A DNA stretch of 33,015 nucleotides from Methanobacteriota archaeon (lineage in GTDB: Archaea; Thermoplasmatota; Poseidoniia; Poseidoniales; Poseidoniaceae). Position numbers and translations under genes: made by a program. The notes below the pieces were generated by a model. That model saw nothing but the letters and a program-made list of their open reading frames with translations. It did no database searches and was not told where the DNA came from. Shown piece after piece: positions 1 through 25,493 of this stretch. Positions within the stretch are counted from its first letter, which is position 1. The number at the start of each line of letters is the position of its first letter. The stretch lies in NCBI GenBank assembly GCA_002710205.1, contig PAJN01000054.1, positions 1 to 33,015 on the forward strand, in the 5' to 3' direction.

Positions 1-2490
1 GGAGATGTAATTTCACATTCAGGACTATTCAGCGATTCGGTTAACTCCAATCTTTCAGTAATGGGAGATGTGCTATGGACTTCTTGTCAAAGCGACCTCA
101 TGTTGTACAATTTGCACGTTAGTGGCGATGTACAGTTAGATAATTCCTGTAGAGTTACAATCAATTCAGGAAGCGTTTCACCAAATGTTAGTGTTGGAGT
201 TGGCGCATCTCTGGAAATAGTCAACACTCTACATGTATCGGTTGTTGACAAAGGAGAAGCCGTCCAAGGTGCTACCATTACAATAGATGGTCAGAGCGTT
301 ACTACTGATTCTAATGGCGAGGCTAGCAAATCAACAACTTCTCTGCTAGTAGACTCTACTGGAACAGTAACCACTGGGTTAATGCAAGTCGAGATGCAAT
401 GGGGGCAGATTTCTGATTTGATGGCTTGGGACACATCTAGTTCTATGGAGCACACATTCATTGCATCAACAATTGACTCAGGAGAAATTAGCGATTGGCT
501 AATTCTAGAAAAATTGTGGAGTCCATATCATCTGACTGGCGATTTAGTTGTACCTCAAGGCTATACAATGACAATCAACGATGGCGCACATTTGCGAATT
601 GCAGACCAAGTAACAATTACAGTTGAAGGAACATTCTCTTCTGGCGTTTCTACAATATCTTCAATGGGCGATGGTGCTAGATGGGGCGGATTGTTAGTTG
701 GCGATAATGCCGAAACCTCTGTACAAATACTGGGGACTAGTTTGGTTGAAGGCTCTCCATTAATGACATTTAATGGCGATGCTGATGTAATTTTTAGCTA
801 TGCAACATTGGCACGCTCAAGCAGTGCAGAACCGCTAATCAGGACAACAAATTCAGCTCAAGGGACTCTTCATCTAGTATCTACGACCTTCACCGATTCA
901 GCATCGCATTGCATTGAGTCTCAAGGTTCAGTTTCAATCACAATAGAAAATGTAGAGATGCAAAATTGCCAATCAGACGCGATTTGGGCCCAAGGAGTAA
1001 ATCTAGAAATTGACGGTCTAACTGTCACAGAACCAGTTAGTTTGGGGGCAGTACAAGGACACTTGTCAAACTTTGACGGAGCAGACTTAGTCGTGAACAA
1101 TCTAGATGGTTTCGAAATGAATAATCTGAATATTACATCTTTGAGTGGTAATGATAATAGAGAGATAATCCTCGATGTAGCCAATATTGATGGCGCACCA
1201 GCAATCGATTTAGATAATTCAGCAGGTATTTTGTCTAACCTGGATATTGATTGCGGAGGTAGTGGAACTGCCATAACTGCTCACCACGGTAGATCGTCAG
1301 CATCACTGACAGTTTCCGATTCTGTTATCGCTTCCTGTACTAAGGGAGTTGATTTGCATACTGATGGAGAATCGGCTCCAATGATTCTAATGAATGTACA
1401 CATCGACTCAATGATTGCAATTGCAAGTGATGGCGCAGGAGTTACAGTACACGATGGAATACTAAACGGAACAGTTGATATCGATTCTGCTATCGCCAAC
1501 CTCTATGATGTGTCACCAACATCAGAGTCTACATCATTTGGCGAAATTAGAATATGGGCAACTCATATTTTCGATGTTAGACTAAATGGCAACTCTCAGA
1601 ATGCAGACATTGTCTTCGAAGTCGAAGAATACTGGTCTGGCGAAGCACAAGGTAGCAGTGTTCAAGTTTCTCTGCCTGCAAAGATTGTTGATGACTCGGG
1701 CACGAGAGATTATTCTACAGTTAGAGTGATTGCCTCAGCGAATGGCTTACCAGATACAGATGCCAACTTTTCGTTCGGAATTAGTGTAGATGAAATCATA
1801 CAAGTCGACATGATTGAGAATCAGGCACCTGATGTAGAGATAATTATTCCAGATGATGGATTTAGAATAATGGAAAGCCTACCGATTGAAATTAGAGCGG
1901 TAATCAGTGACGATTTAGATTCAAATGCCGAATTGCAAATTGTATGGAGCGTAGTAGTTGGTCAAACTGAAATGATGCAGCTTTCAGGTGAATGGAACAA
2001 CATAACAGATTTACAAGCTGGATTCTATGTCTTGTCACTGGATGTCACCGATACTCAAGGAAAAACATCTAGTGATTCACTGAGTTTTGAAATCACTCTG
2101 CTAGATTCAGATGAAGATTGGAGCATAACTTGCAACTCAGAGACTTGGTTCGATAAAGAAGAGAACTTGTATTGTGGACCAGACATCTATGATACTGATG
2201 ATGATAATGATGGCTCATTAGACGTTAGAGATGCATGGCCTAATGATCCATGTGCAAGTATTGACACAGATAACGATGGCCAGCCCGACGATTTGCATTG
2301 TCCTTTGGGAGTAACAACCTGGCTAACTGTAGACCCAGATGATGACGGAGACGGAATTCCGGACATTTCAGAAGGAGCAGATTCAGGAGAAGATTCAGAG
2401 AGCAGTTCTGTTGGTACTGTGATATTTGTTCTAATATTCCTCGGAGCAGCAGCTTACATGTTGATGCGTAGGAAGCAGGGCGTGGAGTGA
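1..2490 (+). CDS. Large surface protein, beta-helix plus calcium-repeat stalk, 5'-truncated
   Basis: The reading frame is open from base 1, so the N-terminus lies outside the window; 829 residues are visible. An internal ATG at 61 is not taken as the start because the 20 upstream codons are open and similar in composition. Roughly residues 150-500 are a run of short Asn/Asp/Ser-rich beta strands of the kind found in right-handed parallel beta-helix proteins. An Ig-like segment follows near residues 610-700. Next come acidic repeats resembling thrombospondin type-3/calcium-binding loops (DTDDDNDG near 731, TDNDGQPDD near 756, DPDDDGDG near 779). The protein ends with one hydrophobic helix (about 805-822) and the basic stop-transfer MRRK, so it is probably anchored outside the membrane with a very short cytoplasmic tail. 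Its ligand or role cannot be told from sequence. The stop codon overlaps the next start. Confidence 0.85.
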   Translation, partial: GDVISHSGLFSDSVNSNLSVMGDVLWTSCQSDLMLYNLHVSGDVQLDNSCRVTINSGSVSPNVSVGVGASLEIVNTLHVSVVDKGEAVQGATITIDGQSVTTDSNGEASKSTTSLLVDSTGTVTTGLMQVEMQWGQISDLMAWDTSSSMEHTFIASTIDSGEISDWLILEKLWSPYHLTGDLVVPQGYTMTINDGAHLRIADQVTITVEGTFSSGVSTISSMGDGARWGGLLVGDNAETSVQILGTSLVEGSPLMTFNGDADVIFSYATLARSSSAEPLIRTTNSAQGTLHLVSTTFTDSASHCIESQGSVSITIENVEMQNCQSDAIWAQGVNLEIDGLTVTEPVSLGAVQGHLSNFDGADLVVNNLDGFEMNNLNITSLSGNDNREIILDVANIDGAPAIDLDNSAGILSNLDIDCGGSGTAITAHHGRSSASLTVSDSVIASCTKGVDLHTDGESAPMILMNVHIDSMIAIASDGAGVTVHDGILNGTVDIDSAIANLYDVSPTSESTSFGEIRIWATHIFDVRLNGNSQNADIVFEVEEYWSGEAQGSSVQVSLPAKIVDDSGTRDYSTVRVIASANGLPDTDANFSFGISVDEIIQVDMIENQAPDVEIIIPDDGFRIMESLPIEIRAVISDDLDSNAELQIVWSVVVGQTEMMQLSGEWNNITDLQAGFYVLSLDVTDTQGKTSSDSLSFEITLLDSDEDWSITCNSETWFDKEENLYCGPDIYDTDDDNDGSLDVRDAWPNDPCASIDTDNDGQPDDLHCPLGVTTWLTVDPDDDGDGIPDISEGADSGEDSESSSVGTVIFVLIFLGAAAYMLMRRKQGVE

Positions 2491-3029
2491 TGGCAGAAGT
2501 TACCAGCGCATTACCTGACCCAGAGACAATGGCTCAGTTTTGCGTTGCAGTATTAGCAATCATCGTTGCTTGGGATGCATGGTGGCTAGGCCGTCAACGA
2601 ATAGATATCCCGAAACTTGGTGAACTATCTAATGGTGGATATGCTTGGGAATCTAATCAATCACAGGAAGTCTCGCGTCAATGGGCGAATTTGTTGACTA
2701 TGGGCGCAATGATGGTTCTCCCGTGGATGTTGGCAGAGCTATCCAATACTCCAATAATTTGGGTTTGGATTTGGGATATATTACTCGCAATTCACTTGGT
2801 ATCTCTACTGATTCCCAAGAGATACGCAGTTACGAATACACACTTATTTGCTGATGGCCAAAGATATGAGTGGAATAGATTGAAGTTGGCTAAGAAGCAG
2901 CCAAAGAAGAGAATAATGTTGTTGCGCAAGGGGTGGGGCCCTTTCGGACCCCTACCCCTTGGCGGCGACAGAGATGCGCTTGACAAAGCAGCAAATCTGA
3001 TAGTCACAATTCTTCAAGAAGAAGAGTGA
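2490..3029 (+). CDS. Small membrane protein, unknown function
   Basis: A protein of 179 residues whose ATG shares its A with the TGA of the upstream surface-protein gene (TGATG), implying translational coupling; a GTG one codon earlier is an alternative start. Three hydrophobic stretches (near residues 15-33, 68-86 and 90-110) look like membrane helices, followed by a basic cytoplasmic-type C-terminal region of about 65 residues with a KKQPKKR patch and a Gly/Pro-rich turn (GWGPFGPLPLGG). I do not recognise the family. Its coupling to the preceding gene suggests a role with that surface protein, but this is inference. The gene converges on the rhodopsin gene with only two bases between the stop codons. 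Confidence 0.75.
   Translation: MAEVTSALPDPETMAQFCVAVLAIIVAWDAWWLGRQRIDIPKLGELSNGGYAWESNQSQEVSRQWANLLTMGAMMVLPWMLAELSNTPIIWVWIWDILLAIHLVSLLIPKRYAVTNTHLFADGQRYEWNRLKLAKKQPKKRIMLLRKGWGPFGPLPLGGDRDALDKAANLIVTILQEEE
2928..2960 (+). repeat. GC-rich inverted repeat inside a gene
   Basis: Bases 2928-2938 (AAGGGGTGGGG) and 2950-2960 (CCCTACCCCTT) can pair over 11 positions with one G-T wobble around an 11-base loop. It lies 70 bases before the stop codon of the small membrane protein gene and stands out against the AT-rich surroundings. It may simply reflect the Gly/Pro codons of the GWGPFGPLPLGG segment. Confidence 0.5.
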
Positions 3030-3031
3030 TT

Positions 3032-3841
3032 TCATTCCTCAGATGAGGAAGCTTTGGTGTCCATAGTTGCTGCATACCAGACCATCAAACCGAAAGCAGT
3101 CTTGTTGACTACGTCAGCGATGTTGTACAGTATGTTCAAGCGGTCGATACCGCTGTCACCAGCATCTTGTCCTAGGATCCAACCCAATGGGTAAATTGCC
3201 CATCCGATTGTTAGGATTCCAGCCATTGCCTTGAAAGCGAATTGTGTACCTTCGCTTGCTTCTCCGACCTTCTCCTTTGCTTCTCCAGCCCAAAGCTCGT
3301 AGATGATGTAAGCCCATGCTATACATCCTACGATGAATAGGGGCCATTCCATGCCATCCACGGCATCGATATCAGCTTCGGACAAAAATCCGGTAACTAG
3401 CATAATGATGGATGCTCCGAAAAGTCTCCAGAATAGTACCGCAGATGCTGCACCGATCGCTGCTAGGATTAGGTAGAACTCGGATACCTGGAGAGGCACT
3501 GTGATCAACCAATCGATGTAACGCATTACCAGTGGAGATTCTCCGGTTGCTACCCAGTGCTCACGCATGTAGGTGTAGTGGTACCAGGCGATACCAGTCA
3601 CCAATGCTGCAACGGTCATGGATGTCTTCCACTTAGGCGCTACGTTGTTTCTTTCTAAGATGAAGAACACAGTTGATGCCAGCATCATAGCAGTTGCAAT
3701 CCAGAATGAAACTCCGACCATGTCGGTTTCTTTCAGCATTCCATTTGTGCTAGAGCTAGCAGCCACGCTACTAAGAGTTAGTAGACTTAGTGCTCCCACC
3801 AGTGTCAGGCTTGATGTTCTAATTAACGTAGATTTATTCAT
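3032..3841 (-). CDS. Proteorhodopsin, light-driven proton pump, blue-tuned
   Basis: A 269-residue seven-helix retinal protein of the proteorhodopsin family, expected to pump protons outward on absorbing light. Residues visible by alignment to the well-known green proteorhodopsin: Schiff-base lysine K247 (NKTAF), proton acceptor D110, T114 and proton donor E121, giving the DTE pumping motif in RYIDWLITVPLQVSEFYLIL, plus the conserved H88 partner of the acceptor. The spectral-tuning position (105 in green proteorhodopsin) is Gln, Q118, which in characterised proteins gives blue absorption. The first 28 or so residues look like a cleavable signal peptide, typical of the family. The start at 3841 was chosen over an in-frame codon 18 residues upstream because it fits the signal peptide and sits 26 bases from a TATA box. 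No retinal or carotenoid synthesis gene is present nearby. Confidence 0.97.
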   Translation of the reverse strand: MNKSTLIRTSSLTLVGALSLLTLSSVAASSSTNGMLKETDMVGVSFWIATAMMLASTVFFILERNNVAPKWKTSMTVAALVTGIAWYHYTYMREHWVATGESPLVMRYIDWLITVPLQVSEFYLILAAIGAASAVLFWRLFGASIIMLVTGFLSEADIDAVDGMEWPLFIVGCIAWAYIIYELWAGEAKEKVGEASEGTQFAFKAMAGILTIGWAIYPLGWILGQDAGDSGIDRLNILYNIADVVNKTAFGLMVWYAATMDTKASSSEE

Positions 3842-3863
3842 CAAATATCCGTAATTCCTTGTG

Positions 3864-3871
3864 TATATAAT
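3864..3871 (-). promoter_or_regulatory. TATA box of the rhodopsin gene
   Basis: On the minus strand the sequence AATTATATACAC lies with its centre about 26 bases before the ATG at 3841, the normal archaeal distance from TATA box to transcription start. Transcription would begin at or next to the start codon, giving a leaderless mRNA. This allows rhodopsin to be expressed separately from the ABC transporter gene upstream. Confidence 0.6.
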
Positions 3872-3897
3872 TGACTGTATTTTTTCTTTACACATTC

Positions 3898-5670
3898 TCA
3901 GACAATTTTACCAGTTTGAACTGCCCACATTCGGGCGTACGTGCCACGGTTAGCAACTAGCCCTTCATGCGCCCCATCTTCAATAATTTCTCCATTTTCT
4001 AACACAATAATTCTTTCAGCATTCCTGATTGTTGATAAGCGGTGAGCGATAATTATGGCCGTTCTGCCACTAGAAATCTTGTTGATTGATCTTTGTAAAG
4101 CCGCCTCAGTTTCATTATCAACTGCAGAGGTTGCCTCATCTAGAATTAGAACAGGGGCATCTTTCAGCACAGCTCTAGCGATTGCCAAGCGTTGCCTTTG
4201 ACCTCCAGATAATCTATGGCCGCCTTCACCAACTAATGTTTCCCAAGCATCAGGCAACTCTTCGATAAAACCCGATGCTTCGGCTACCAGCCCTGCTGCC
4301 TTTACTTGTTCATCACTAGCAGTAGGATTTCCATATCGAATATTTTCTAGAATTGTAGTTGGGAATAGGGTGATGTGCTGGTCTACTAAAGACATCGATG
4401 AACGCAACCTTTCAAGATTCCATTCATGTAGTGCTTTACCTGCCCATTTTATCTCTCCACCTTTTGGTTCTGCAAATCTTAGTAATAATCTGATCAATGT
4501 TGTTTTTCCTGAACCTGTGGCGCCTACAATACCGATAGTATCTCCTGATTTGATTGTTAGATTCAGATTTTCAAACACATTTTCTCTACCCCTATAGGCG
4601 AATGAGACACCATTTAGTTCGATGTCTGAGCTAAAAATATCAGCATCATCGGGTGCAAAATCACCCTGGCTGATTTCAGTAGGAGATGATAGGACATCAA
4701 GCACTCTTGTTGACGAAGCCATGGCTCTCTGATAGAGGTCGAAGGTTTCTCCTAAGCGTGTTAATGGCCATAACAATCTCTGTGTCATAAACACTAGAAC
4801 AGAGTACGCTCCAATAGCTAGAACGCCTTCCAAAGTAAGCCATCCTCCAAGAAGTAACGTTGCAGTAAAACCACAAAGAATCGCCATTCTAATCATTGGA
4901 ACGAATGCTACAGAGAGTCTGATTGCCTTCTTGTTCGCATTTCTGTATTCATTACTCAATTCTTCTACTCGTTTCAATTCTCTATCTTCTGCTGTAAAAG
5001 ATTGGATGGTGGACATTCCGGACAAATCGTTTTCTAGAAGGGCATTCAATCTACCCGCAGTATTACGGACCTCGGCATATCTTGGCTCTAGACTTCTCTG
5101 GTATAGGAAAGAGCCCCAGATGATTATGGGTATTGGAAGAACTGCAAATAGAGCGACCTTCCATGAGATCGCAAGGAATACAGCGCCTACAACAATAACA
5201 GTAGTCGTTACCTGTAAGAGGTCATTTGCACCCTTATCCAAGAAACGCTCCAACTGATTTATGTCATCATTTAGAATAGCCAAAATATCTCCTTTTTGTC
5301 TTTCATCGAACCACCCCATCCCTTGTTTTTGCACATGACTGAAGGTTTCGAGGCGTAATTCATGCTGCACGGTTTGTGCAAGATTTCTCCACAAAATGCC
5401 ATAAAAATACTCAAACAAGGATTCTAATCCCCAGATAATGAATGTTAGGACAGAGAGTAAAATCAACTGATGCCATGCATCTTCCACTCCGAATCCTGCA
5501 AGAAACGACTCTTCGCGCTGGACGACTACATCAACTGCTAAGCCGATTAGCAACGGTGGAGCCAAATCCCAAATTTTGTTGAGGACAGAACAAAGTGTTG
5601 CAAGCCGAATTGTGCCTTTGTGAGGCGACATATATCGTAACAATCTTCTGAACGGACCTCCCTCACTCAT
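3898..5670 (-). CDS. ABC exporter, fused membrane and ATPase domains (MsbA/LmrA type)
   Basis: A 590-residue half-transporter expected to act as a homodimer exporting lipids, drugs or peptides; the substrate cannot be assigned. The N-terminal half (about 15-310) holds six hydrophobic helices of the type I exporter fold. The C-terminal ATPase domain shows Walker A (GATGSGKTT, near 383), Q-loop (SLVDQHITLF), ABC signature (LSGGQRQRLAIARA, near 488), Walker B (VLILDEATSAVD) and the H-loop (IIIAHRLSTIR), so it should be active. The start is placed at 5670 (MSEGGPF) because the helix-I lead-in aligns there and it leaves 97 bases of divergent promoter space; ATGs at 5739 and 5769 are open in frame, but the latter would overlap the start codon of the divergent gene. 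It is 56 bases upstream of the rhodopsin gene. Confidence 0.93.
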   Translation of the reverse strand: MSEGGPFRRLLRYMSPHKGTIRLATLCSVLNKIWDLAPPLLIGLAVDVVVQREESFLAGFGVEDAWHQLILLSVLTFIIWGLESLFEYFYGILWRNLAQTVQHELRLETFSHVQKQGMGWFDERQKGDILAILNDDINQLERFLDKGANDLLQVTTTVIVVGAVFLAISWKVALFAVLPIPIIIWGSFLYQRSLEPRYAEVRNTAGRLNALLENDLSGMSTIQSFTAEDRELKRVEELSNEYRNANKKAIRLSVAFVPMIRMAILCGFTATLLLGGWLTLEGVLAIGAYSVLVFMTQRLLWPLTRLGETFDLYQRAMASSTRVLDVLSSPTEISQGDFAPDDADIFSSDIELNGVSFAYRGRENVFENLNLTIKSGDTIGIVGATGSGKTTLIRLLLRFAEPKGGEIKWAGKALHEWNLERLRSSMSLVDQHITLFPTTILENIRYGNPTASDEQVKAAGLVAEASGFIEELPDAWETLVGEGGHRLSGGQRQRLAIARAVLKDAPVLILDEATSAVDNETEAALQRSINKISSGRTAIIIAHRLSTIRNAERIIVLENGEIIEDGAHEGLVANRGTYARMWAVQTGKIV

Positions 5671-5767
5671 ACTTGGGCCACGGGTGTTGAGTATGAGAAT
5701 GCTCGTCTTGTAAACGAGTTCAAATTTTGAGATAACCATAATTGAGCCCCGCCCAATCGGACAAAAC

Positions 5768-6196
5768 ATGGAATGGACGCGCAGCGGCGAAGATCTGTTT
5801 GTCAGAATCGATTCAGGCGATGAAATCCATGCTTCACTTCAACGCCTTGCAGACGAAGTTGGTTTTGATGCTGCAGCAATAACCAGCGGAATTGGAAGGA
5901 CGAGAGATACCTTGTATGGTTACATGAATGAAGACGGTGTATACATTCGTAGGCAACTAGAATCGCCATCTGAATTAGTTAGTTTGTCGGGAAACATTGC
6001 CAGGAAACAGGATGGTAAAGCCTTCACACACATTCATTGTTGCTGGTCAGATGATGACAACAATGTCCATGCAGGGCATATGTTTCAGAGCGTAGTTCAT
6101 GTTGTTGCGGAAATCCACATTCGTATTCTTACACATGCTATAATGACGCGCTGTCCGCTGCCAGATGTCGAACTTTTAGGATTAGAATTTTCGTGA
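5768..6196 (+). CDS. PPC/DUF296 domain protein
   Basis: A 142-residue protein consisting of one PPC (plants and prokaryotes conserved, DUF296) domain. The family signature is visible: SLSGNIARK followed by a THIHC motif, an aspartate-rich turn (SDDDNN) and AGHMF. The His-x-His and Gly-His residues are those that bind a metal in prokaryotic structures. In bacteria and archaea the domain is a stand-alone trimer of uncertain role; in plants it is fused to AT-hooks. There is no AT-hook here, so DNA binding should not be assumed. It diverges from the ABC exporter gene and is 31 bases upstream of the DNA ligase gene, probably co-transcribed. Confidence 0.85.
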   Translation: MEWTRSGEDLFVRIDSGDEIHASLQRLADEVGFDAAAITSGIGRTRDTLYGYMNEDGVYIRRQLESPSELVSLSGNIARKQDGKAFTHIHCCWSDDDNNVHAGHMFQSVVHVVAEIHIRILTHAIMTRCPLPDVELLGLEFS

Positions 6197-6227: not shown

Positions 6228-8240
6228 ATGGCCGGAGAAGATCGAATCAAGTATCTGGCCGATGCGGTGAGATATCATAGGGAATTGTACTACAATCATT
6301 CCGCACCTGAAATTTCTGATGGCGAATTTGATTCACTTTGGGATGAGTTGAAGACTCTCGATCCTAACAATGCAGTATTGCATGAAGTAGGGCCTGAACC
6401 ACTTCCTGGAACTGTAAAGGTTGAACACATGTTTCCAATGCGTTCTTTGGACAAGGGAACATCAGATGAAGACATCATTCACTTCGTAACGCAATCCACT
6501 TTCGGCGGGAAGAGATACATTGCTCAGCCGAAATTGGACGGTTCTGCGCTGTCATTGGAGTATGTTGCCGGCAATCTACATCGAGCGGCTACAAGAGGTA
6601 GTGGAGAGAGAGGAGAAGACGTCACATTGAATGCCAAACTGGTGGCCAATGTTCCAACAAGACTGAACTTGGCAATCGATTGTCACGTACGTGGAGAAGT
6701 GGTAATGCCGCTGGCTGTTTTCGAAGAAAAATACAGAGAAGTTTCTCCAAATCCCCGTAATCTATGTTCTGGGGCTCTTAGGCAAAAACACGGTGATGGA
6801 AAAGCCGATGCTTCTGATTTAGTGTTCTGCGCGTATGATGTAAAGTTTCCAAATCAAAGTCCAGAAGCTGTGAATGATAGTGAACTACTAACTTGGTTAC
6901 AAGAAGCAGGTATAGAACCTGCTCCTTGGGAGATTTTTGATTCAGATTCTCCACAAAAAGAAATGATTGAATATACATCTAGATGGAGTGCAAAGCGTTC
7001 ATCTTATGAATTTGAAATCGACGGTATTGTGTTCAAATTAGACAATTTGGAACAGCGAGAAAATCTGGGTATGACTGCACATCATCCTAGGTGGGCACTT
7101 GCATGGAAATTCCCATCTCAAGAGGCAACTTCTGTTCTGTTAGATGTTGATTGGCAAACAGGAAGGACTGGGGCGGTAACTCCTGTTGCTAGGATTGCTC
7201 CTCAGATGGTTGGCGGAGTAACAGTTGAAAATGTTACATTGCACAATGTGGGGGAAGTAGAACGTTTAGGAATTAAGATTGGAGACAAAGTCAAAATTAC
7301 TCGCAGAGGAGATGTTATTCCAAAAATCATAGAGAATTTGGGCGAAGCATCTTCAATAGATTTGGAGGGCAGATTCCATGCTGATGGCACTCAGTTTAGT
7401 GGAGATTTGTTAGTTCAAAGCGTCGAAATTCCGAATGATTGCCCGGCCTGTGGTCGAGATTTGATCATGGAAGGCGCCTTTTTGCGTTGTATTGCGCTAG
7501 AATGCGATGCAAGAACAGCGAGAGCATTGACCTACTGGTGTAGAACACTTGAGATGGATGGCATCGGTGAAAAATTAATCGAAGCCTTACTTGATAACGG
7601 ATTAGTTGAATCAATAACAGATTTGTATCGCCTGAATCACTCTCAAATTTCCAATTTGGAAAGGATGGGAGACAAAAGCGCTTACAACGTCCTGGATGAA
7701 CTTGCTAAAACAAGAAAACTCAATCTTGCAAAATTCCTCCACGCCTTAGGAATAGAGAGAATTGGTCCGGAAGTTGCAACAACAATTTCACAATATTTCA
7801 CCTCACTTGAGAAGTTATTACTCTGGGTCGATGAAGGTCAAATCGAAGAACTAACAACAATTGATGGTATTGGCGACAAGGTTGCTACAATCTTTCGAGA
7901 AGGAATTTCCAAGCGTAGAGAATTGATTGATGAGCTTTCAGAAATAATCAATGTGAGCGATGAAACAGAATCCGCAAGTGGAGTTTTCGACGGTAAATCC
8001 TTCTGCATAACCGGATCATTGTCTCGCCCAAGAAAAGAAATTGCACTGGCAATCAAGAATGCGGGAGGCAAGGTTGTTGGAAATGTGAGTGGCAATCTCG
8101 ATATTTTGGTAGCAGGAGAGAAAGCAGGAAGCAAATTAGCAAAGGCGGAATCCCTGAATGTTGAGGTGTGGAGCGAAGAAAAATTGTTCATGCAGATTTC
8201 AGAACCAAGAAAAGGTCCCAAGACCTTGTTTGAATTCTGA
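6228..8240 (+). CDS. ligA: NAD-dependent DNA ligase LigA
   Basis: A 670-residue full-length NAD-dependent DNA ligase, which seals nicks using NAD as AMP donor. Domains in order: Ia NMN-binding region (residues 15-45, LYYNHSAPEISDGEFD), adenylation domain with catalytic lysine K102 in PKLDGSAL, TRGSGERGED, NPRN, EIDGIVFKLDN and WKFPSQE; OB domain (GRTGAVTPVARI, GDVIPKI); a four-Cys zinc finger (CPACGRD ... RCIALEC); helix-hairpin-helix region (about 435-570); C-terminal BRCT domain (about 585-655). The residue two before the catalytic lysine is Gln (Q100) where E. coli has Glu113. The enzyme is bacterial-type; most archaea rely on an ATP-dependent ligase, so lateral acquisition is likely. Confidence 0.97.
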   Translation: MAGEDRIKYLADAVRYHRELYYNHSAPEISDGEFDSLWDELKTLDPNNAVLHEVGPEPLPGTVKVEHMFPMRSLDKGTSDEDIIHFVTQSTFGGKRYIAQPKLDGSALSLEYVAGNLHRAATRGSGERGEDVTLNAKLVANVPTRLNLAIDCHVRGEVVMPLAVFEEKYREVSPNPRNLCSGALRQKHGDGKADASDLVFCAYDVKFPNQSPEAVNDSELLTWLQEAGIEPAPWEIFDSDSPQKEMIEYTSRWSAKRSSYEFEIDGIVFKLDNLEQRENLGMTAHHPRWALAWKFPSQEATSVLLDVDWQTGRTGAVTPVARIAPQMVGGVTVENVTLHNVGEVERLGIKIGDKVKITRRGDVIPKIIENLGEASSIDLEGRFHADGTQFSGDLLVQSVEIPNDCPACGRDLIMEGAFLRCIALECDARTARALTYWCRTLEMDGIGEKLIEALLDNGLVESITDLYRLNHSQISNLERMGDKSAYNVLDELAKTRKLNLAKFLHALGIERIGPEVATTISQYFTSLEKLLLWVDEGQIEELTTIDGIGDKVATIFREGISKRRELIDELSEIINVSDETESASGVFDGKSFCITGSLSRPRKEIALAIKNAGGKVVGNVSGNLDILVAGEKAGSKLAKAESLNVEVWSEEKLFMQISEPRKGPKTLFEF

Positions 8241-8285: not shown

Positions 8286-10715
8286 ATGCGTATGAAGATA
8301 GCATCACTTTTGTTAGTGTCTATTTTGTTGGCATCAACTGTCCCTACATCCATTGGATATAGTAATGGGGTATACAAACGAGGCAGCAGCGGATGTAATT
8401 GTCACGGATACAACACGGTAACAATTTCAATGAGTGGCCAACCTTCATCATACACTCCAGGAACTACCTATACTCTACAGATTTCTGTTAGCACCGGAAG
8501 TTCTGGTAATGGCGGATTTAGTTTGGATGTGAATAAAGGAACACTATCAGCTGGCGGCGTTGGAATTATGGCTGTGAAGGTAAACTCCGCAGGAGACAGC
8601 GCAACACACACTACCAATAGTCACCGTAGTTGGAGCGTTGATTGGACTGCACCTTCTGCTGGTTCAGGCTCAGTACAGTTCGATATATCGGCGGTTTCAG
8701 CAAATGGAAACGGAGGAACAGGTGGAGATGTTTGGGGCGACACTACAATCACAGTACCCGAAGGCGGAACTCCACCGTCTAACAATCCCCCGTCCGTATC
8801 ATCGGTCCTTCTGAGCCCTGCGAACCCAGTAACCACAGATAATTTAATCCTGACTTATACTTATCAGGACCCAGATGGTGACGCTGAATCTGGAACAATG
8901 ATTCGTTGGTATAAGGACGGATTGCTAGAATCTTCGAGAAATGACCAGACAACCGTCCCATCATCTCTAACTTCGAAAGGAGAATATTGGAATGTTACAG
9001 TTACTCCAAGTGATGGAACAGATGATGGCAGCCCAGTTCACTCATCCAATTTACTAGTCGTTAACTCGATTCCGTTCGTAAATTCAGCTGAAATTACTCC
9101 AACAGATGCGTTGGAATCAGATGATTTAACGCTAATTCACTTATCTTCTGATGCTGACAATGATGTCGTAGCAGTCAGCGATACAGAATGGTATGTAGAC
9201 GGATCCAAGGTTTCAGCATTTGATGGAGATACAACAATTCCTTCTGTTGCAATTCGAGACGGGGACGTTTGGTATGCCAAGATAAGAGTAAATGATGGAG
9301 AGGTAGACAGCGACTGGTTTACAACGCAAGATATCACAATTGGTAGCGATAATACGCCTCCTACAATGGTAAGTGTATCTCTCTCCGGCGGGCCGTTCAC
9401 GACAATAGACGATTTACAAGCCACTGCACAAGCAACAGATGCCGATAATGACGCTCTAACCTATGAATGGGACTGGCCTGCAACAAATGGCGCTGTTTCA
9501 TCATCTACATTACCCTCATTTTACACCGAAAAGGGAGAATCCTGGACTGTGAGGTGTAGAGTTACTGATGGAGTTGTATATTCAGATTGGATGGAAAGTA
9601 GCGCAGTGATTATTCAAAACACTGCCCCGGTGTTGAATGAGTTGAACATCGATCAAGATACTGTATTCTTCGATACTGAGGCAACTTATTCTTACGACGC
9701 ATCAGATATAGATGGAGACGCCCTTTCCACTTCAGAAACTTGGGATATCACTGGGGATATTTTGACTCTGACTCTGTCCGTATACGATGATGAAATGGCT
9801 TATTCCAACACATTAAGCGACACTGTGCAAATTGTCAATTCATTGCCAACCCTTTCGTATGATGGACCATTATCTCAAAGCGCCCTAATTCCACTTAGCC
9901 CAACAATTCAATCTGATGATGCCAATGGAGATACAGTTACAACATCCTGGCAATGGATGAGAAACGGATTCATGACTGATGAAAATGGAAGCACAATTTC
10001 TGAGAGTAAATTGGGCGCAGGCGATATATGGACAGCAATGGTTACTCCGAACGATGGCCAAGACGATGGACCTGTTTTGATGATTGATTTCACTATTTCA
10101 AATACCGCTCCAACAGCGAGTATTACCGCGCCAGAATCTCTCATCCAAGGGGCGATGGTGACCTTCTCTGCAATGAGCTCATCCGATATTGACGGGGCAG
10201 TTGTAAATGCAATATGGAGCATCGACGGTACTGTAATGCATAACGGTATGACTTTCACTACAATTATGACTCAGCAACTAGATCTGCAAGTAAAAGTAAT
10301 CGATGATTTGGGTGCAGACGATGTTTATTCACAGACTTTTACTGGAACACAGGCTCCAAAGGCAACCAATACACAGGTCAAATTGGATGGCAGCGATGTG
10401 ATCATCACTTGGGAAGGAGAATCTCAAGAATGGGCAGTCGTACATAATGGGCAATTAATTGACACTACTTCTGAACTGAAGTATCGCCATACACCAACTA
10501 TGGAAGGCCAACATGTCTACAGCGTGATGCCTGTTATTGATGGCCAAACAATCCAAGACGGCAGCATGGGTTCAACCGATTCGGTTGAATTAACCTCGAG
10601 CCTTGTTCCAGAAGCTCCGGGGCCTAGTGACACTGCGGGATTAGTTTTCAGCATCATTTTGTTATTGGTGGGATTAATTGGTGTGGCATTTTCATTCCTT
10701 CCTAGGAGGGATTGA
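8286..10715 (+). CDS. Secreted, TM-anchored Ig-repeat protein with N-terminal CxCH and Reeler-like domain
   Basis: An 809-residue protein with an N-terminal signal peptide (residues 1-25). Directly after it is GSSGCNCHGYN, a Cys-x-Cys-His motif, followed by a domain to about 155 that resembles the choice-of-anchor V/Reeler group (SYTPGTTYTLQI, HRSWSVDWTAP, GSVQFDISAVSANGNG). Bacterial relatives usually have Cys-x-x-Cys-His here. Then come about six tandem Ig/cadherin-like modules of some 80-95 residues (about 165-700), each with a D-x-D-x-D type loop such as DPDGDAES, DADNDVV, DADNDAL and DIDGDAL that may bind calcium. One membrane helix near the C-terminus ends in LPRRD. Two ATGs (8286 and 8292) are possible starts. 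The stop is immediately followed by the next ATG. Heme or metal binding by the motif is speculative. Confidence 0.82.
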   Translation: MRMKIASLLLVSILLASTVPTSIGYSNGVYKRGSSGCNCHGYNTVTISMSGQPSSYTPGTTYTLQISVSTGSSGNGGFSLDVNKGTLSAGGVGIMAVKVNSAGDSATHTTNSHRSWSVDWTAPSAGSGSVQFDISAVSANGNGGTGGDVWGDTTITVPEGGTPPSNNPPSVSSVLLSPANPVTTDNLILTYTYQDPDGDAESGTMIRWYKDGLLESSRNDQTTVPSSLTSKGEYWNVTVTPSDGTDDGSPVHSSNLLVVNSIPFVNSAEITPTDALESDDLTLIHLSSDADNDVVAVSDTEWYVDGSKVSAFDGDTTIPSVAIRDGDVWYAKIRVNDGEVDSDWFTTQDITIGSDNTPPTMVSVSLSGGPFTTIDDLQATAQATDADNDALTYEWDWPATNGAVSSSTLPSFYTEKGESWTVRCRVTDGVVYSDWMESSAVIIQNTAPVLNELNIDQDTVFFDTEATYSYDASDIDGDALSTSETWDITGDILTLTLSVYDDEMAYSNTLSDTVQIVNSLPTLSYDGPLSQSALIPLSPTIQSDDANGDTVTTSWQWMRNGFMTDENGSTISESKLGAGDIWTAMVTPNDGQDDGPVLMIDFTISNTAPTASITAPESLIQGAMVTFSAMSSSDIDGAVVNAIWSIDGTVMHNGMTFTTIMTQQLDLQVKVIDDLGADDVYSQTFTGTQAPKATNTQVKLDGSDVIITWEGESQEWAVVHNGQLIDTTSELKYRHTPTMEGQHVYSVMPVIDGQTIQDGSMGSTDSVELTSSLVPEAPGPSDTAGLVFSIILLLVGLIGVAFSFLPRRD

Positions 10716-11819
10716 ATGAGATTCAAAGTAGCCTTGGTACTGTTATTGATGATTCTGTCAACTACAATTTCTACTGCGAACCCCGGCGGTAAAGGCGATT
10801 CAGTACGCTCAAGAGACTGTGCCGGTTCTTGTCATGGCTCATCCTCAACGAACGGCGTATCTGGTGCTGAGTTAGATATTCAGTACCCTGATGAAGTCTA
10901 TGCGGGACTACTAATGGAAATTGAAACTACGATTAGTTTCGCAGAAGTTAGTTCGAATAATATGGTTGGAATGACGCTATTGGTCAATGAAGATGGTGCT
11001 AAAGATTTGCCAGCAAATGATGGCTGGGGAGTAGTTACCGATCCCAATGGTGGGACCAACAATTATGTTGAGATCATCGATTCATTTTCGATAAATAGCA
11101 TGGTTGAGCGAACATGGACATTACGTGCTCCATCTAGCCCAGGAGTATACGAATTATACCTCGCAGTACAGCACGGAACTCCTGATGGCGGTGTAGCAAT
11201 GACCGGAATTTCCGACGCCAAGCAGGTTGTAGTCAGTGAAGTCCCAGAGAACCTTCCACGTCTATCTCCAGATTGGGAGCCTGTGAATACTAGACTAATT
11301 GGGGAAGCGACAGAGATTACATTACAGACACTAAATACAGATTCTGTAACTGTAGAGTTGAAAAACGGTGGCGAAGTAATTACAATTCCAGTTGTTGATG
11401 ACAAATTCACAATTCCCGCAGCAGTGAACCCCGGTGTAGTTGAATGGAGGGTAATCATGGAAGGCGAAGGACCTACACAACAATCACCATGGTTCAGAAT
11501 TACAGCTCAAGAACCTGGCTGGGAAGTAGACGAATTTGCATTATATCTCCAAGGATTTGCTCTTTTCATTCTCTGCATTGGATTAGTTGTTTTACAAAGG
11601 CCGAAGGGCAAAGAAATCGAATCGAGCAAGTATGACAATACAGCAGATGTAACATCACAATTTGGTAGAATCCAGGGCTCATCTCCTGCTATGGTTGACT
11701 TGCCCACTACGGGCCCTCCGGTTCCAGAAGGAGGGCTTCCTGAAGGCTGGACAATGGAACAATGGGAATATTATGGGCAAGAACATCTCGATAATTTAGC
11801 AAGAGGTGGTCAACAATGA
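10716..11819 (+). CDS. Secreted, TM-anchored protein with CxxxCH motif and GWT-EQW-YG tail
   Basis: A 367-residue protein starting on the base after the previous stop codon. A signal peptide (1-21) precedes GGKGDSVRSRDCAGSCHGSSS, which holds a Cys-x-x-x-Cys-His motif at about 35-40, then a beta-sandwich domain (to about 170) of the same general type as the preceding protein, including SSPGVYELYLAVQHG. A second beta domain runs to about 265. A membrane helix (about 273-292, FALYLQGFALFILCIGLVVL) leads to a cytoplasmic region of about 75 residues that ends in LPEGWTMEQWEYYGQEHLDN, a short Trp/Tyr motif after a Pro/Gly linker. The paired Cys-His proteins and the coupled membrane protein downstream suggest one extracytoplasmic complex; the reaction is unknown. 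Confidence 0.8.
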   Translation: MRFKVALVLLLMILSTTISTANPGGKGDSVRSRDCAGSCHGSSSTNGVSGAELDIQYPDEVYAGLLMEIETTISFAEVSSNNMVGMTLLVNEDGAKDLPANDGWGVVTDPNGGTNNYVEIIDSFSINSMVERTWTLRAPSSPGVYELYLAVQHGTPDGGVAMTGISDAKQVVVSEVPENLPRLSPDWEPVNTRLIGEATEITLQTLNTDSVTVELKNGGEVITIPVVDDKFTIPAAVNPGVVEWRVIMEGEGPTQQSPWFRITAQEPGWEVDEFALYLQGFALFILCIGLVVLQRPKGKEIESSKYDNTADVTSQFGRIQGSSPAMVDLPTTGPPVPEGGLPEGWTMEQWEYYGQEHLDNLARGGQQ

Positions 11820-12325
11820 TTTCCGCTGGTACTTTCCATGTAATTTCTACCGAACTGACAATTGGAATGTTTGCTTTGGCCGGAGTAGCCTTCTTACTTT
11901 GCGCAATTCAAAAGGGACCGATGTCGAGAGAGTCTGTTGCCCATTGGGCTTTACTTGGCGGTTTGATAGCAACCCCTTTCGCAATAATCAGTGGAGTAAA
12001 TGCAGTTCCAAGTGAAGGGATAGACGACCCAATTTTGGCCAACAAGCTATTGCTATCTATGGCTTCTGCAGGACTGGCAGTAGGCATTCTGCTACGAAGG
12101 AAATGGGGTGGAGAAGTTGACATTCGACATTCTAGTATCGGTATGATCTCAGTTGGCTTAATGCTTGCAACAGCAGGCATGGGTGGAGAATATTCACGTG
12201 GAGAAACCCTTCTGCTATTCATCCCAAAGGAAACAGTCATGCTGTTCCCAATTTGGGCCAGCATCGTATTGCTAATAATCGGGATGGCGATAGTTGGAAA
12301 ATCAGCCATAGAGCATAGAAGCTGA
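11816..12325 (+). CDS. Four-helix membrane protein, DUF2231-like
   Basis: A 169-residue membrane protein with four hydrophobic helices (about 8-30, 43-62, 77-95, 103-123) and a fifth C-terminal one (about 141-161). The order of features resembles DUF2231 proteins: an N-terminal histidine before helix 1 (FHVISTELTIG), a Gly/Pro helix (GLIATPFAIISGV), and a TAGMGGEYSRGE segment like the family's glycine-rich loop. DUF2231 proteins often sit with cytochromes or redox genes, though their function is not established. The ATG overlaps the previous stop (ATGA), so it is coupled to the two Cys-His proteins. Its C-terminal 24 bases overlap the convergent PAC2 gene. Confidence 0.72.
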   Translation: MISAGTFHVISTELTIGMFALAGVAFLLCAIQKGPMSRESVAHWALLGGLIATPFAIISGVNAVPSEGIDDPILANKLLLSMASAGLAVGILLRRKWGGEVDIRHSSIGMISVGLMLATAGMGGEYSRGETLLLFIPKETVMLFPIWASIVLLIIGMAIVGKSAIEHRS

Positions 12326-13102
12326 AGATGGAGAAGGCTCAGAATCAGCACCTTCCATCATACTTCGAATTTGATCTTCCAATTGTTGAGCTTCGGCAAG
12401 CAGTGGTTCATGGTCCAAATCTGCAACAGGTAACATCTTGTTTAGATGCTCAATAATTACTGCAGCTGCCCTAGCATCAGGGAACCTAGGGTCTGCTTCA
12501 ACCATGATGCTCATGATATTTCTTCCCCGACTAGAACCCTCACTGAGCATTGCCCCAGTCATTCCTTTGATTACCCCTTGTTCTAACAATTTGATATCCA
12601 TTCCTTGTAGAATTTCAGCCATCTTTGGCGTTGCTGCAACTCCTAAAACATCAACGTCTTCAGTATCTTCGTATTCAACTAAAGGCTCGTTTCCATTTAG
12701 TCCACCTTTCATGCCTTTCATTGCGAAAGCATCGATTAGAATACCCATTGCTGCATTCTGCTCTTTTGACCATTCGAATAGAGAACTAACAATCTCGTGA
12801 ACCAGTGGGTCAGGAACAATCAATTCACTCATTAGTAGAAGCACTTTGTCACATACTCCTTCCAATTTGCAAATAGGCTCACCGGCATATGCTCGGATTG
12901 GAGGCAGTGGAACGCCATCTTGGACTAAGCAAATAGCTGGGAGTTTGGGATGTGCAACTCCGCCTACGAATTCTAGGTTTAGATGATCAATCAAGAAATG
13001 TGCAACCACACTAGATACCATTCCAACACTAGGAAAACAGCATACTACTAATGCGTCTTCGATGTCAATGTTCTTGTCGAGCCATACTTTTGCTCCTTCC
13101 AT
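12302..13102 (-). CDS. PAC2 family protein (proteasome assembly chaperone-like), copy 1
   Basis: A 266-residue soluble protein of the PAC2 family, whose eukaryotic members help assemble proteasomes and whose archaeal members are of uncertain function. Family features visible are ALVVCCFPSVGMVSSVVAHFL near the N-terminus (a Gly-Phe/Pro-x-x-Gly-x-x-Gly type loop), KLPAICLVQDGVPLPPIRAY, and the C-terminal VEADPRFPDARAAAVIIEHL. The tail is Ser/Pro-rich. The start at 13102 (MEGAKVW) is preferred over the longer open frame because it aligns with the family and lies about 26 bases from a TATA box. It is a paralogue of the gene at 24750 (shared V-G-M-V, the A-x-x-x-P-x-[FY]-P-D-A-R-A-A-A motif and LED-x-x-R). 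Confidence 0.88.
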   Translation of the reverse strand: MEGAKVWLDKNIDIEDALVVCCFPSVGMVSSVVAHFLIDHLNLEFVGGVAHPKLPAICLVQDGVPLPPIRAYAGEPICKLEGVCDKVLLLMSELIVPDPLVHEIVSSLFEWSKEQNAAMGILIDAFAMKGMKGGLNGNEPLVEYEDTEDVDVLGVAATPKMAEILQGMDIKLLEQGVIKGMTGAMLSEGSSRGRNIMSIMVEADPRFPDARAAAVIIEHLNKMLPVADLDHEPLLAEAQQLEDQIRSMMEGADSEPSPSSASMLYG

Positions 13103-13124
13103 GAATTGATGACAGACCTCCTTG

Positions 13125-13132
13125 TGTATAAT
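13125..13132 (-). promoter_or_regulatory. TATA box of PAC2 copy 1
   Basis: The minus strand reads GATTATACACAAGGAGG, with the TATA element centred about 26 bases before the ATG at 13102, so the transcript is likely leaderless. Twelve bases (TATACACAAGGA) are identical to the rhodopsin promoter at nearly the same distance from the start codon. Confidence 0.5.
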
Positions 13133-13195
13133 CTCGCCCCCTATATTGCTCAATGTTACCCCAAGCAATTTGAAGTCGAGCACGCAAGCCTGCTT

Positions 13196-14341
13196 ATGGG
13201 CGGGGAAAGACCACACACATTGTCCCCCTCTGCGTGGAATAGGTACGAAACATGCCCGCGCATGTATTGGTTAAGTCGGCAAAAATTGCCTAGAAAAGCT
13301 GGGATGGCAGCAAGTCTTGGAACTGCAGTCCATGCATCGGTTGAAGATTTATTGCAAATAGATTTGACTGGGCGAGAGTCGAGCGAGACACACTGGTTAC
13401 CCGAGATGGCTGAGAAATTTTTGAAAGAAAGATGGGAGGAAGAAAAAGAGATTTTCTTTGCAACACCTAGAAGGCCAATGTGGAAAGAGAAAGAATGGGA
13501 CAAAGCGAAAAGGATGCAAAGAGGTGCAATCAAAATGCTTCTTGAATTCGTTGGTGCTGCTGGAGTAACTCCTCTAAAAACACCCGTTGGAATCTGGAGA
13601 AACTTATTGTCAAGAGTTATAGCAGTTGAAGGCGAATTAAGAACCAGTGATAATCGATTAATGGGTAGACTAGACATGCTTTTTGCCGATGTAGACTCGA
13701 ATGGCGAATTGCAGGGGTGGGTTGTTGCTGATCTCAAAACTGGCCGTGCGCCAAATGAAAATCTAAAGCCAGAAGTACAACGACAGTTATTGCTCTACAG
13801 AGATATTCTGCTATCAAATAACCCGAATGCACCTCCGGTTAAAACAGAAGGATGGTACACAGAAAATGCGACTAGGTACACCGCATCAGGAGGCTCTGTC
13901 ATGGAAGCGGCTCTCAAAGCGTGGGAAGAAACACAACCGAGCGAATCTCCGCTGGAAGCAACTCCTGGACAATCCTCTTGTGGAGGGTTTTGTGATTGGA
14001 AAGCATGGTGCCCACACTGGTGGAATTGGAGACTAGAAAACGGAACATTGGGCACTGAAGATTTCTCTGATTCTGTGATCTTGTTGCATCACTTCGATGA
14101 AATGAATGGTTCTGGAGTTGCTGAAATCTGTGAACCAGCAAATGCTGAAGGAAGAGCCATGCCGACAGGAATTCAAGTACCGATTAACTTCGATGGCCGT
14201 GGAAAAGAAGCGTTGCAAGAACTACTTGCAACGGGACACCAAGGTCCAATCTTCATTGGTAGTGCTATGACTAACAGAGGCACATGGAGAGTTGGACATT
14301 GGTGCGATGTATTAGCCTGGTCACCCATTCCGGATGCTTGA
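13196..14341 (+). CDS. RecB-like PD-(D/E)XK nuclease with Fe-S-type cysteines
   Basis: A 381-residue nuclease of the RecB/Cas4/AddB-like PD-(D/E)XK group. N-terminal LSPSAWNRYETCPRMYWL is typical of the family. Catalytic elements: H46 (GTAVHASVEDLL), E145, D160 (MGRLDMLFADV), D179-x-K181 (VVADLKTGRA) and the QxxxY motif Q197-Y201 (QLLLYRDI). Four cysteines, C20 plus C262, C266 and C272 (CGGFCDWKAWC), are placed as in Fe-S cluster nucleases, though the first spacing is three residues rather than the usual two. A C-terminal extension of about 95 residues follows the cluster and is not recognised. The start at 13196 was chosen because the longer frame overlaps the divergent PAC2 start. No cas genes are nearby, so a repair or recombination role is more likely than CRISPR adaptation. 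Confidence 0.88.
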   Translation: MGGERPHTLSPSAWNRYETCPRMYWLSRQKLPRKAGMAASLGTAVHASVEDLLQIDLTGRESSETHWLPEMAEKFLKERWEEEKEIFFATPRRPMWKEKEWDKAKRMQRGAIKMLLEFVGAAGVTPLKTPVGIWRNLLSRVIAVEGELRTSDNRLMGRLDMLFADVDSNGELQGWVVADLKTGRAPNENLKPEVQRQLLLYRDILLSNNPNAPPVKTEGWYTENATRYTASGGSVMEAALKAWEETQPSESPLEATPGQSSCGGFCDWKAWCPHWWNWRLENGTLGTEDFSDSVILLHHFDEMNGSGVAEICEPANAEGRAMPTGIQVPINFDGRGKEALQELLATGHQGPIFIGSAMTNRGTWRVGHWCDVLAWSPIPDA

Positions 14342-24709: not shown

Positions 24710-24736
24710 TTTCGTAATACCTTTGAATGAGGCAAT

Positions 24737-24743
24737 AGGAGGG
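24737..24743 (+). promoter_or_regulatory. Ribosome binding site of PAC2 copy 2
   Basis: AGGAGGG ends six bases before the ATG at 24750. It favours this start over an in-frame TTG at 24723 and suggests internal translation initiation on a transcript shared with the surface protein. Confidence 0.7.
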
Positions 24744-24749
24744 TCATAT

Positions 24750-25493
24750 ATGGCGGGTCAATCAACATACGATTTAGTGTTGCATAAGGACGCAGATCCA
24801 TCGACTAGTGGAGTGGCTATCTGCGGCTTTTCGACAGTTGGGATGGTTGGAGTTATTGCCGCATCCCATATGATTAGCCAATTGAATTTGAAACAATTGG
24901 GAACAGTTCTGAATGCTGAATTCCCTGCCATGGCATTAGTACATCATGAGGTTCCTAAGCATCCAGTAAGGGTGTATCAGGGAGATGGTGTTGGCGTTTT
25001 CACTGCCGAAGTTAGATTTGGTCCTGAACGCGATGTATTGTTTGCAAATACTGTTCTGGAATGGTTTACTAAAGGCGGATTCGATCAGTTGATTGTTATC
25101 GATGGTGTAGCACGAGAAAATATGGATGATAGGGAAGATTCCCTGTATGGAGTAAGCTCATCTCTTGCAGGTCGAGACCAGTTGAAGAAGGCTGGGATCG
25201 AACCGGTACGACAGGGTATTGTTGCTGGAATTGCTGGGTATCTTATCGCAGAAGGAGATCGTCTCGGGCTAGATGTAACGGCTATCTTAGCCGACTGTAA
25301 TCCCATGTATCCTGATGCTAGGGCTGCAGCATTGGCTGTTGAAGCAGTTTCGGATTTGACAGGTATTGATATTCCTCTATCATCACTTCTTGAAGATGCT
25401 AGAAAAATTGAGGATAGTGTTCGTGAAGTCTTTGAGAACTCGCAAACGATGTTGCCTGCGCCCGACGATGAAATCGACCCCTCATTCGGCTAA
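24750..25493 (+). CDS. PAC2 family protein (proteasome assembly chaperone-like), copy 2
   Basis: A 247-residue PAC2-family protein. Visible features: VAICGFSTVGMVGVIAASHM (the nucleotide-like Gly-Phe-x-x-x-Gly loop), EFPAMALVHHEVPKHPVRVY, IDGVARENMDDRE, and the C-terminal DCNPMYPDARAAALAVEAV with the helix LLEDARKIEDSVREV. It is a clear paralogue of the gene at 12302-13102, sharing the motif order, but differs in the middle region. Function of archaeal members is unproven; proteasome assembly is inferred from eukaryotic homologues only. The last 12 bases overlap the convergent Trm1 gene. Confidence 0.9.
   Translation: MAGQSTYDLVLHKDADPSTSGVAICGFSTVGMVGVIAASHMISQLNLKQLGTVLNAEFPAMALVHHEVPKHPVRVYQGDGVGVFTAEVRFGPERDVLFANTVLEWFTKGGFDQLIVIDGVARENMDDREDSLYGVSSSLAGRDQLKKAGIEPVRQGIVAGIAGYLIAEGDRLGLDVTAILADCNPMYPDARAAALAVEAVSDLTGIDIPLSSLLEDARKIEDSVREVFENSQTMLPAPDDEIDPSFG

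Follow-up and report, generated by a model that had tools for sequence, protein, structure and literature searches.

A proteorhodopsin of predicted blue type and its exchangeable genomic slot in a Marine Group II archaeon

What would a proteorhodopsin do in an archaeon, which light would it absorb, how did its gene come to be there, and from where would its retinal be obtained? These questions are raised by a gene in the 33,015-nucleotide stretch of DNA that was analysed here as a whole (referred to as the window; contig PAJN01000054.1, assembly GCA_002710205.1). The host is an archaeon, as the initial annotation of the window had claimed. It belongs to Marine Group II (Ca. Poseidoniaceae), and its assembly (G000) amounts to 1.67 Mb and is 78% complete.

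The gene occupies 3032..3841 on the minus strand and encodes 269 amino acids. The initial annotation had the open reading frame and its start right and gave no strand; the plus strand across 3032-3841 is full of stops. An alternative ATG at 3895 would give a protein of 287 amino acids. Since the Met at 3841 is common to the relatives and the sequence up to 3895 is not, the former is probably the better start and the upstream ATG probably not a start. A gap of 56 bp (3842..3897, minus strand) separates the end of the neighbouring ABC exporter gene from the start of the rhodopsin gene.

The protein matched PF01036 with 165 bits (E 2e-48; cut-off 24.6). Its best relatives of solved structure were the green proteorhodopsin GPR (8cqc, E 3e-75) and the blue proteorhodopsins BPR-Med12 (4jq6) and BPR-HOT75 (4kly), with identities of 54.7%, 55.8%, and 52.7%, respectively. 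Folding from the single sequence was poor (pLDDT 52) and was set aside. An AlphaFold2 model built from a 30-sequence alignment (mean pLDDT 82.6) had the seven-helix rhodopsin fold, and its top PDB match was 4kly, with a TM score of 0.94 by target length. The two blue proteins share fold, motif, and Gln105 with the window protein, although they stand on a separate branch of the tree described below. Haloarchaeal bacteriorhodopsin, likewise a retinal proton pump in an archaeon, is a much more remote relative (about 47 bits, where GPR scored 257).

When the protein was aligned to GPR, D110 corresponded to D97, T114 to T101, Q118 to L105, E121 to E108, and the retinal-binding lysine K247 to K231. 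The pump residues and the blue-type glutamine named in the initial annotation are thus all at the positions given there. The counter-ion partners are also in place (H88 for H75 and D243 for D227 of GPR), and all seven residues are invariant in the 30-sequence archaeal alignment. The Asp acceptor, the Thr, and the carboxylate donor of proton-pumping proteorhodopsins are represented by D110, T114, and E121. Q118 and E121 supply the Gln105 and Glu108 that define the archaeal deep photic (DP) type, or Clade A; at the positions where Clade B has Met105 and Lys108, Gln and Glu are found instead. The identity of 53–56% and the residue map to characterised pumps, together with the invariant motif and the fold match to 4kly, point to a pump of a known family. 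We are highly confident in reading the protein as an ordinary pump of the deep photic/Clade A type that moves protons outward when driven by light, probably absorbing blue light at ~490-500 nm. In such a pump, light would isomerise the retinal bound to K247, D110, partnered by H88, would take up the proton, and E121 would re-protonate the Schiff base from the inside.

Sensory rhodopsins exist in general, and beyond this nothing spoke for a light sensor or another non-pumping rhodopsin at this locus. Such a function is extremely improbable: donor Glu121 and acceptor Asp110 are both present, whereas in published sensors Phe or Ser takes the place of the donor (PMC6461757). Next to the gene, an ABC exporter and a protein of unknown family are encoded rather than a transducer, and in a tree with bacterial and Marine Group II sequences, as the initial annotation had proposed, the protein fell among the pumps and not in a non-pumping clade.

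The shift of absorption to the blue would be brought about by Q118, and a blue maximum is likely as predicted from this residue. It is not certain, because exceptions have been published: a Red Sea screen, with MGII-like proteins among those tested, yielded three Gln105 clones with green absorption, for two of which a change in the E-F loop was held responsible (PMC5859045). The window protein also differs from GPR at S154, where GPR has G141. A pump of the same clade that absorbs green despite Q118, other residues overriding position 105, nevertheless seems unlikely. In a study of 2,840 proteorhodopsins by NMR and QM/MM, position 105 was dominant and robust to the sequence background (PMC10807816); Gln was fixed in every archaeal relative of Clade A type that we examined; and a published survey found the deep photic type commoner in deeper photic water (PMC6461757).

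The history of the gene was examined in a tree of 109 sequences. This was a quick search with SH-aLRT support only, in which three characterised proteorhodopsins, none of them from SAR11, were the only close bacterial relatives; the labels DP and SP (shallow photic) were given from motif and host, not from published reference sequences. All 73 of the 73 archaeal D-T-Q-E proteins, those of Marine Group III included, formed one group (support 90), sister to GPR and the two blue proteorhodopsins (support 98). The green archaeal type, with the motif D-T-M-K, formed a separate group (support 99). The window protein lies with the deep photic sequences of Poseidoniia, apart from the shallow photic ones, and its closest relative is archaeal and 94% identical (G016, UBA10). 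Being quick and poor in bacterial sequences, the tree supports the placement, not a direction of transfer.

The initial annotation had considered lateral exchange likely. Exchange is indeed supported, but not in the sense of a bacterial gene out of place: the clade is all-archaeal, the nearest relative is the 94% identical one, and a bacteriorhodopsin-family gene is carried by 147 of the 244 Poseidoniia genomes. The rhodopsin is the expected type for such an archaeon, in its usual host. Both the blue deep photic (Clade A) and the green shallow photic (Clade B) rhodopsins have been ascribed to old bacterial transfer (PMC6461757, PMC6336850), and most likely the family entered Poseidoniia from bacteria long ago. 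Any bacterial transfer was old and class-wide; the recent exchange seen here is from archaeon to archaeon in a fixed slot.

A recent and direct transfer from a bacterium into the host lineage would fit two facts, namely that, outside Poseidoniia, the characterised proteins closest to the window protein are bacterial and 53–56% identical, and that close relatives occur in two genome records labelled bacterial. It is very improbable all the same, as the nearest sequences are all archaeal and the 73 proteins group together with Marine Group III. Moreover, one of the two records (L127, NZVP01000059.1, filed under the Flammeovirgaceae MAG NAT63) holds the slot of the host genus and is, judged by its flanking genes, a mis-binned archaeal contig, its 180-aa protein being 99% and its ABC exporter 87% identical to those of G000. 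In the other (L178, PATO01000040.1, filed as Actinomycetota SAT1582), an archaeal-type DP rhodopsin stands beside the genome's own, different rhodopsin, which may reflect either mis-binning or transfer. No close relatives of the rhodopsin were found among viruses in IMG/VR, and a search of plasmids gave only distant bacteriorhodopsins of 24-35% identity.

Most of this agrees with earlier work. The clade, the blue assignment, the interdomain origin, and the lack of a retinal-forming gene in most MGII genomes have already been published (PMC6461757, PMC6336850); Clades A and B are separated by Q or M at position 105, and blh is missing in most MGII genomes (PMC6336850). PMC6461757 and PMC6336850 credit Frigaard et al. 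2006 with the first report of the DP/Clade A rhodopsins. The window protein shares with the published ones the host group, the D97/Q105/E108 motif, the all-archaeal clade, the replacement at the slot, and the usual absence of blh (PMC6461757, PMC6336850). There is no difference of substance: it is one more sequence, a well-preserved member of a known clade that confirms the published work. What is added here is a survey of the slot as blue, green, or empty in 19 assemblies, and the state of the blh sites in G000.

The slot is bordered by a gene for a 180-aa protein of unknown family (2487..3029, plus strand), convergent with the rhodopsin gene, and by an ABC transporter gene (permease and ATPase; 3898..5769, minus strand), upstream of the rhodopsin gene on the same strand. 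In several further genera of the family, the ABC transporter likewise adjoins rhodopsin. When both flanks were searched for, the slot could be read in 19 assemblies of the genus; the two flanks did not turn up together in G002, G004, G005, or G021. The slot held the blue type in eight assemblies (G000, G003, G010, G013, G016, G018, G019, G020) and the green type in nine (G007, G008, G009, G011, G015, G017, G023, G024, G025; the contig of G024 ends within the rhodopsin gene), and it was empty in two (G014, G022), with the flanks ~25 bp apart. The green rhodopsins are of the SP/Clade B type, predicted to absorb green from their motif; they share genus and slot with the blue type, yet are only 30-35% identical to it.

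In a tree of the flanking genes, to which the mis-binned L127 was added, the slot content needs 6 changes where the minimum is 2, and G017, of the green type, falls into one group with G000, G016, and G020 (98/98). Rhodopsin identity was uncoupled from flank identity (Spearman -0.10, n = 8). Compared with G000 at the protein level, G017 has flanks of 92-96% and a rhodopsin of 34% identity, and G020 has flanks of 94% and a rhodopsin of 78%; for G010 the flanks are 73-81% and the rhodopsin 86% identical, and in L127 the rhodopsin is 74% identical beside the near-identical 180-aa protein. In the blue-type loci whose flanks are close to those of G000 (G003, G018, G020, and L127), DNA identity to G000 falls within the rhodopsin gene, to rise again over its last 50 bases and in the neighbour gene.

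This pattern is what the published overwrite model, demonstrated for genera O1 and N1, predicts (PMC6461757). In this genus, the slot gene has time and again given way to other archaeal rhodopsins or disappeared, and the replacement probably proceeded by homologous recombination in the flanks. Some of the swaps could be assembly chimeras, most of the genomes being MAGs; this doubt is lessened because the pattern recurs across independent assemblies and because G003 is apparently a single-cell genome. The genus offers a compact natural experiment, in which flanks that resemble one another enclose a blue pump, a green one, or none, and the set of slots makes the overwrite model testable at single loci.

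The source of the retinal was examined separately. The window contains no retinal-forming gene, as the initial annotation had observed. It had concluded that the chromophore must come from elsewhere in the genome or from the environment. When the full genome was searched for a beta-carotene cleavage gene, no Blh-family gene was found in the 78%-complete G000. An RPE65-type enzyme was rejected as the source, as no gene for it occurs in the 27 genomes of the genus, G000 included. The lycopene cyclase of the congeners likewise found no match in G000. On contig C19 of G000, a gene of the phytoene synthase family and one of the CrtI family lie side by side, so that some carotenoid may be made.

Seven congeners have a crtI-crtB-crtY-blh cassette, whole or in part, at either of two sites. 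Site 1 lies between an aldo-keto reductase gene and a cupin gene (G009, G015, G016, G019, G020; in G016 the contig is cut before blh could show), and site 2 between a gene for a 199-aa protein and SurE (G001, G010). In this set of cassettes (L106-L114), blh or its vicinity is where several of the contigs break off. The presence of two insertion sites within one genus suggests separate gains of the cassette. A minority of the genus has the cassette, at one or the other of these separate sites, so that the gain and loss of chromophore synthesis may have been independent of the rhodopsin.

A plain assembly hole was weighed as the explanation for the missing blh. On contig C22 of G000, site 2 is closed: a CoaBC-like gene, the gene for the 199-aa protein, and SurE are adjacent, without a cassette. 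At site 1 of G000, the spacer that G020 has on the blh side is matched by the 60 bp preceding the cupin gene. Past this match a different gene end follows, found also upstream of the aldo-keto reductase gene in G006; no blh adjoins the cupin gene, and the contig stops ~200 bp above it. Hence blh is likely absent from the known sites in G000, genome-wide absence being unproven in an assembly that is 78% complete. The probable source of the retinal is uptake, or else synthesis by a gene outside the assembly.

In the class as a whole, blh was detected in 26 of the 244 Poseidoniia genomes. It was commoner among rhodopsin carriers (22 of 147) than among non-carriers (4 of 97), with an odds ratio of 4.1 and p = 0.01, not corrected for kinship. 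That it is detectable in only 22 of the 147 carriers makes the retinal gap a real question. A bacterium without the known genes still makes retinal (PMC7734400). It is conceivable, if somewhat short of an even chance, that none of the known retinal-forming enzymes is in fact present in the lineage, which would yet keep a working pump by means of scavenged retinal or an undescribed retinal synthase.

As for the other genes of the window, the informational genes around the rhodopsin had been described as all archaeal. This does not hold for all of them: 6228-8240 (plus strand), about 2.3 kb from the rhodopsin gene, encodes the NAD-dependent DNA ligase LigA (TIGR00575, 547 bits), a type of ligase usual in bacteria. 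It is followed at 8286-11819 (plus strand) by two genes in succession for secreted proteins whose N-terminal domain is of the choice-of-anchor V type, the match being only weak in the second; both are Cys-rich, with CxCH/CxxxCH motifs. Two PAC2-family proteins, resembling proteasome assembly chaperones, are encoded at 12302-13216 (minus strand) and 24723-25493 (plus strand).
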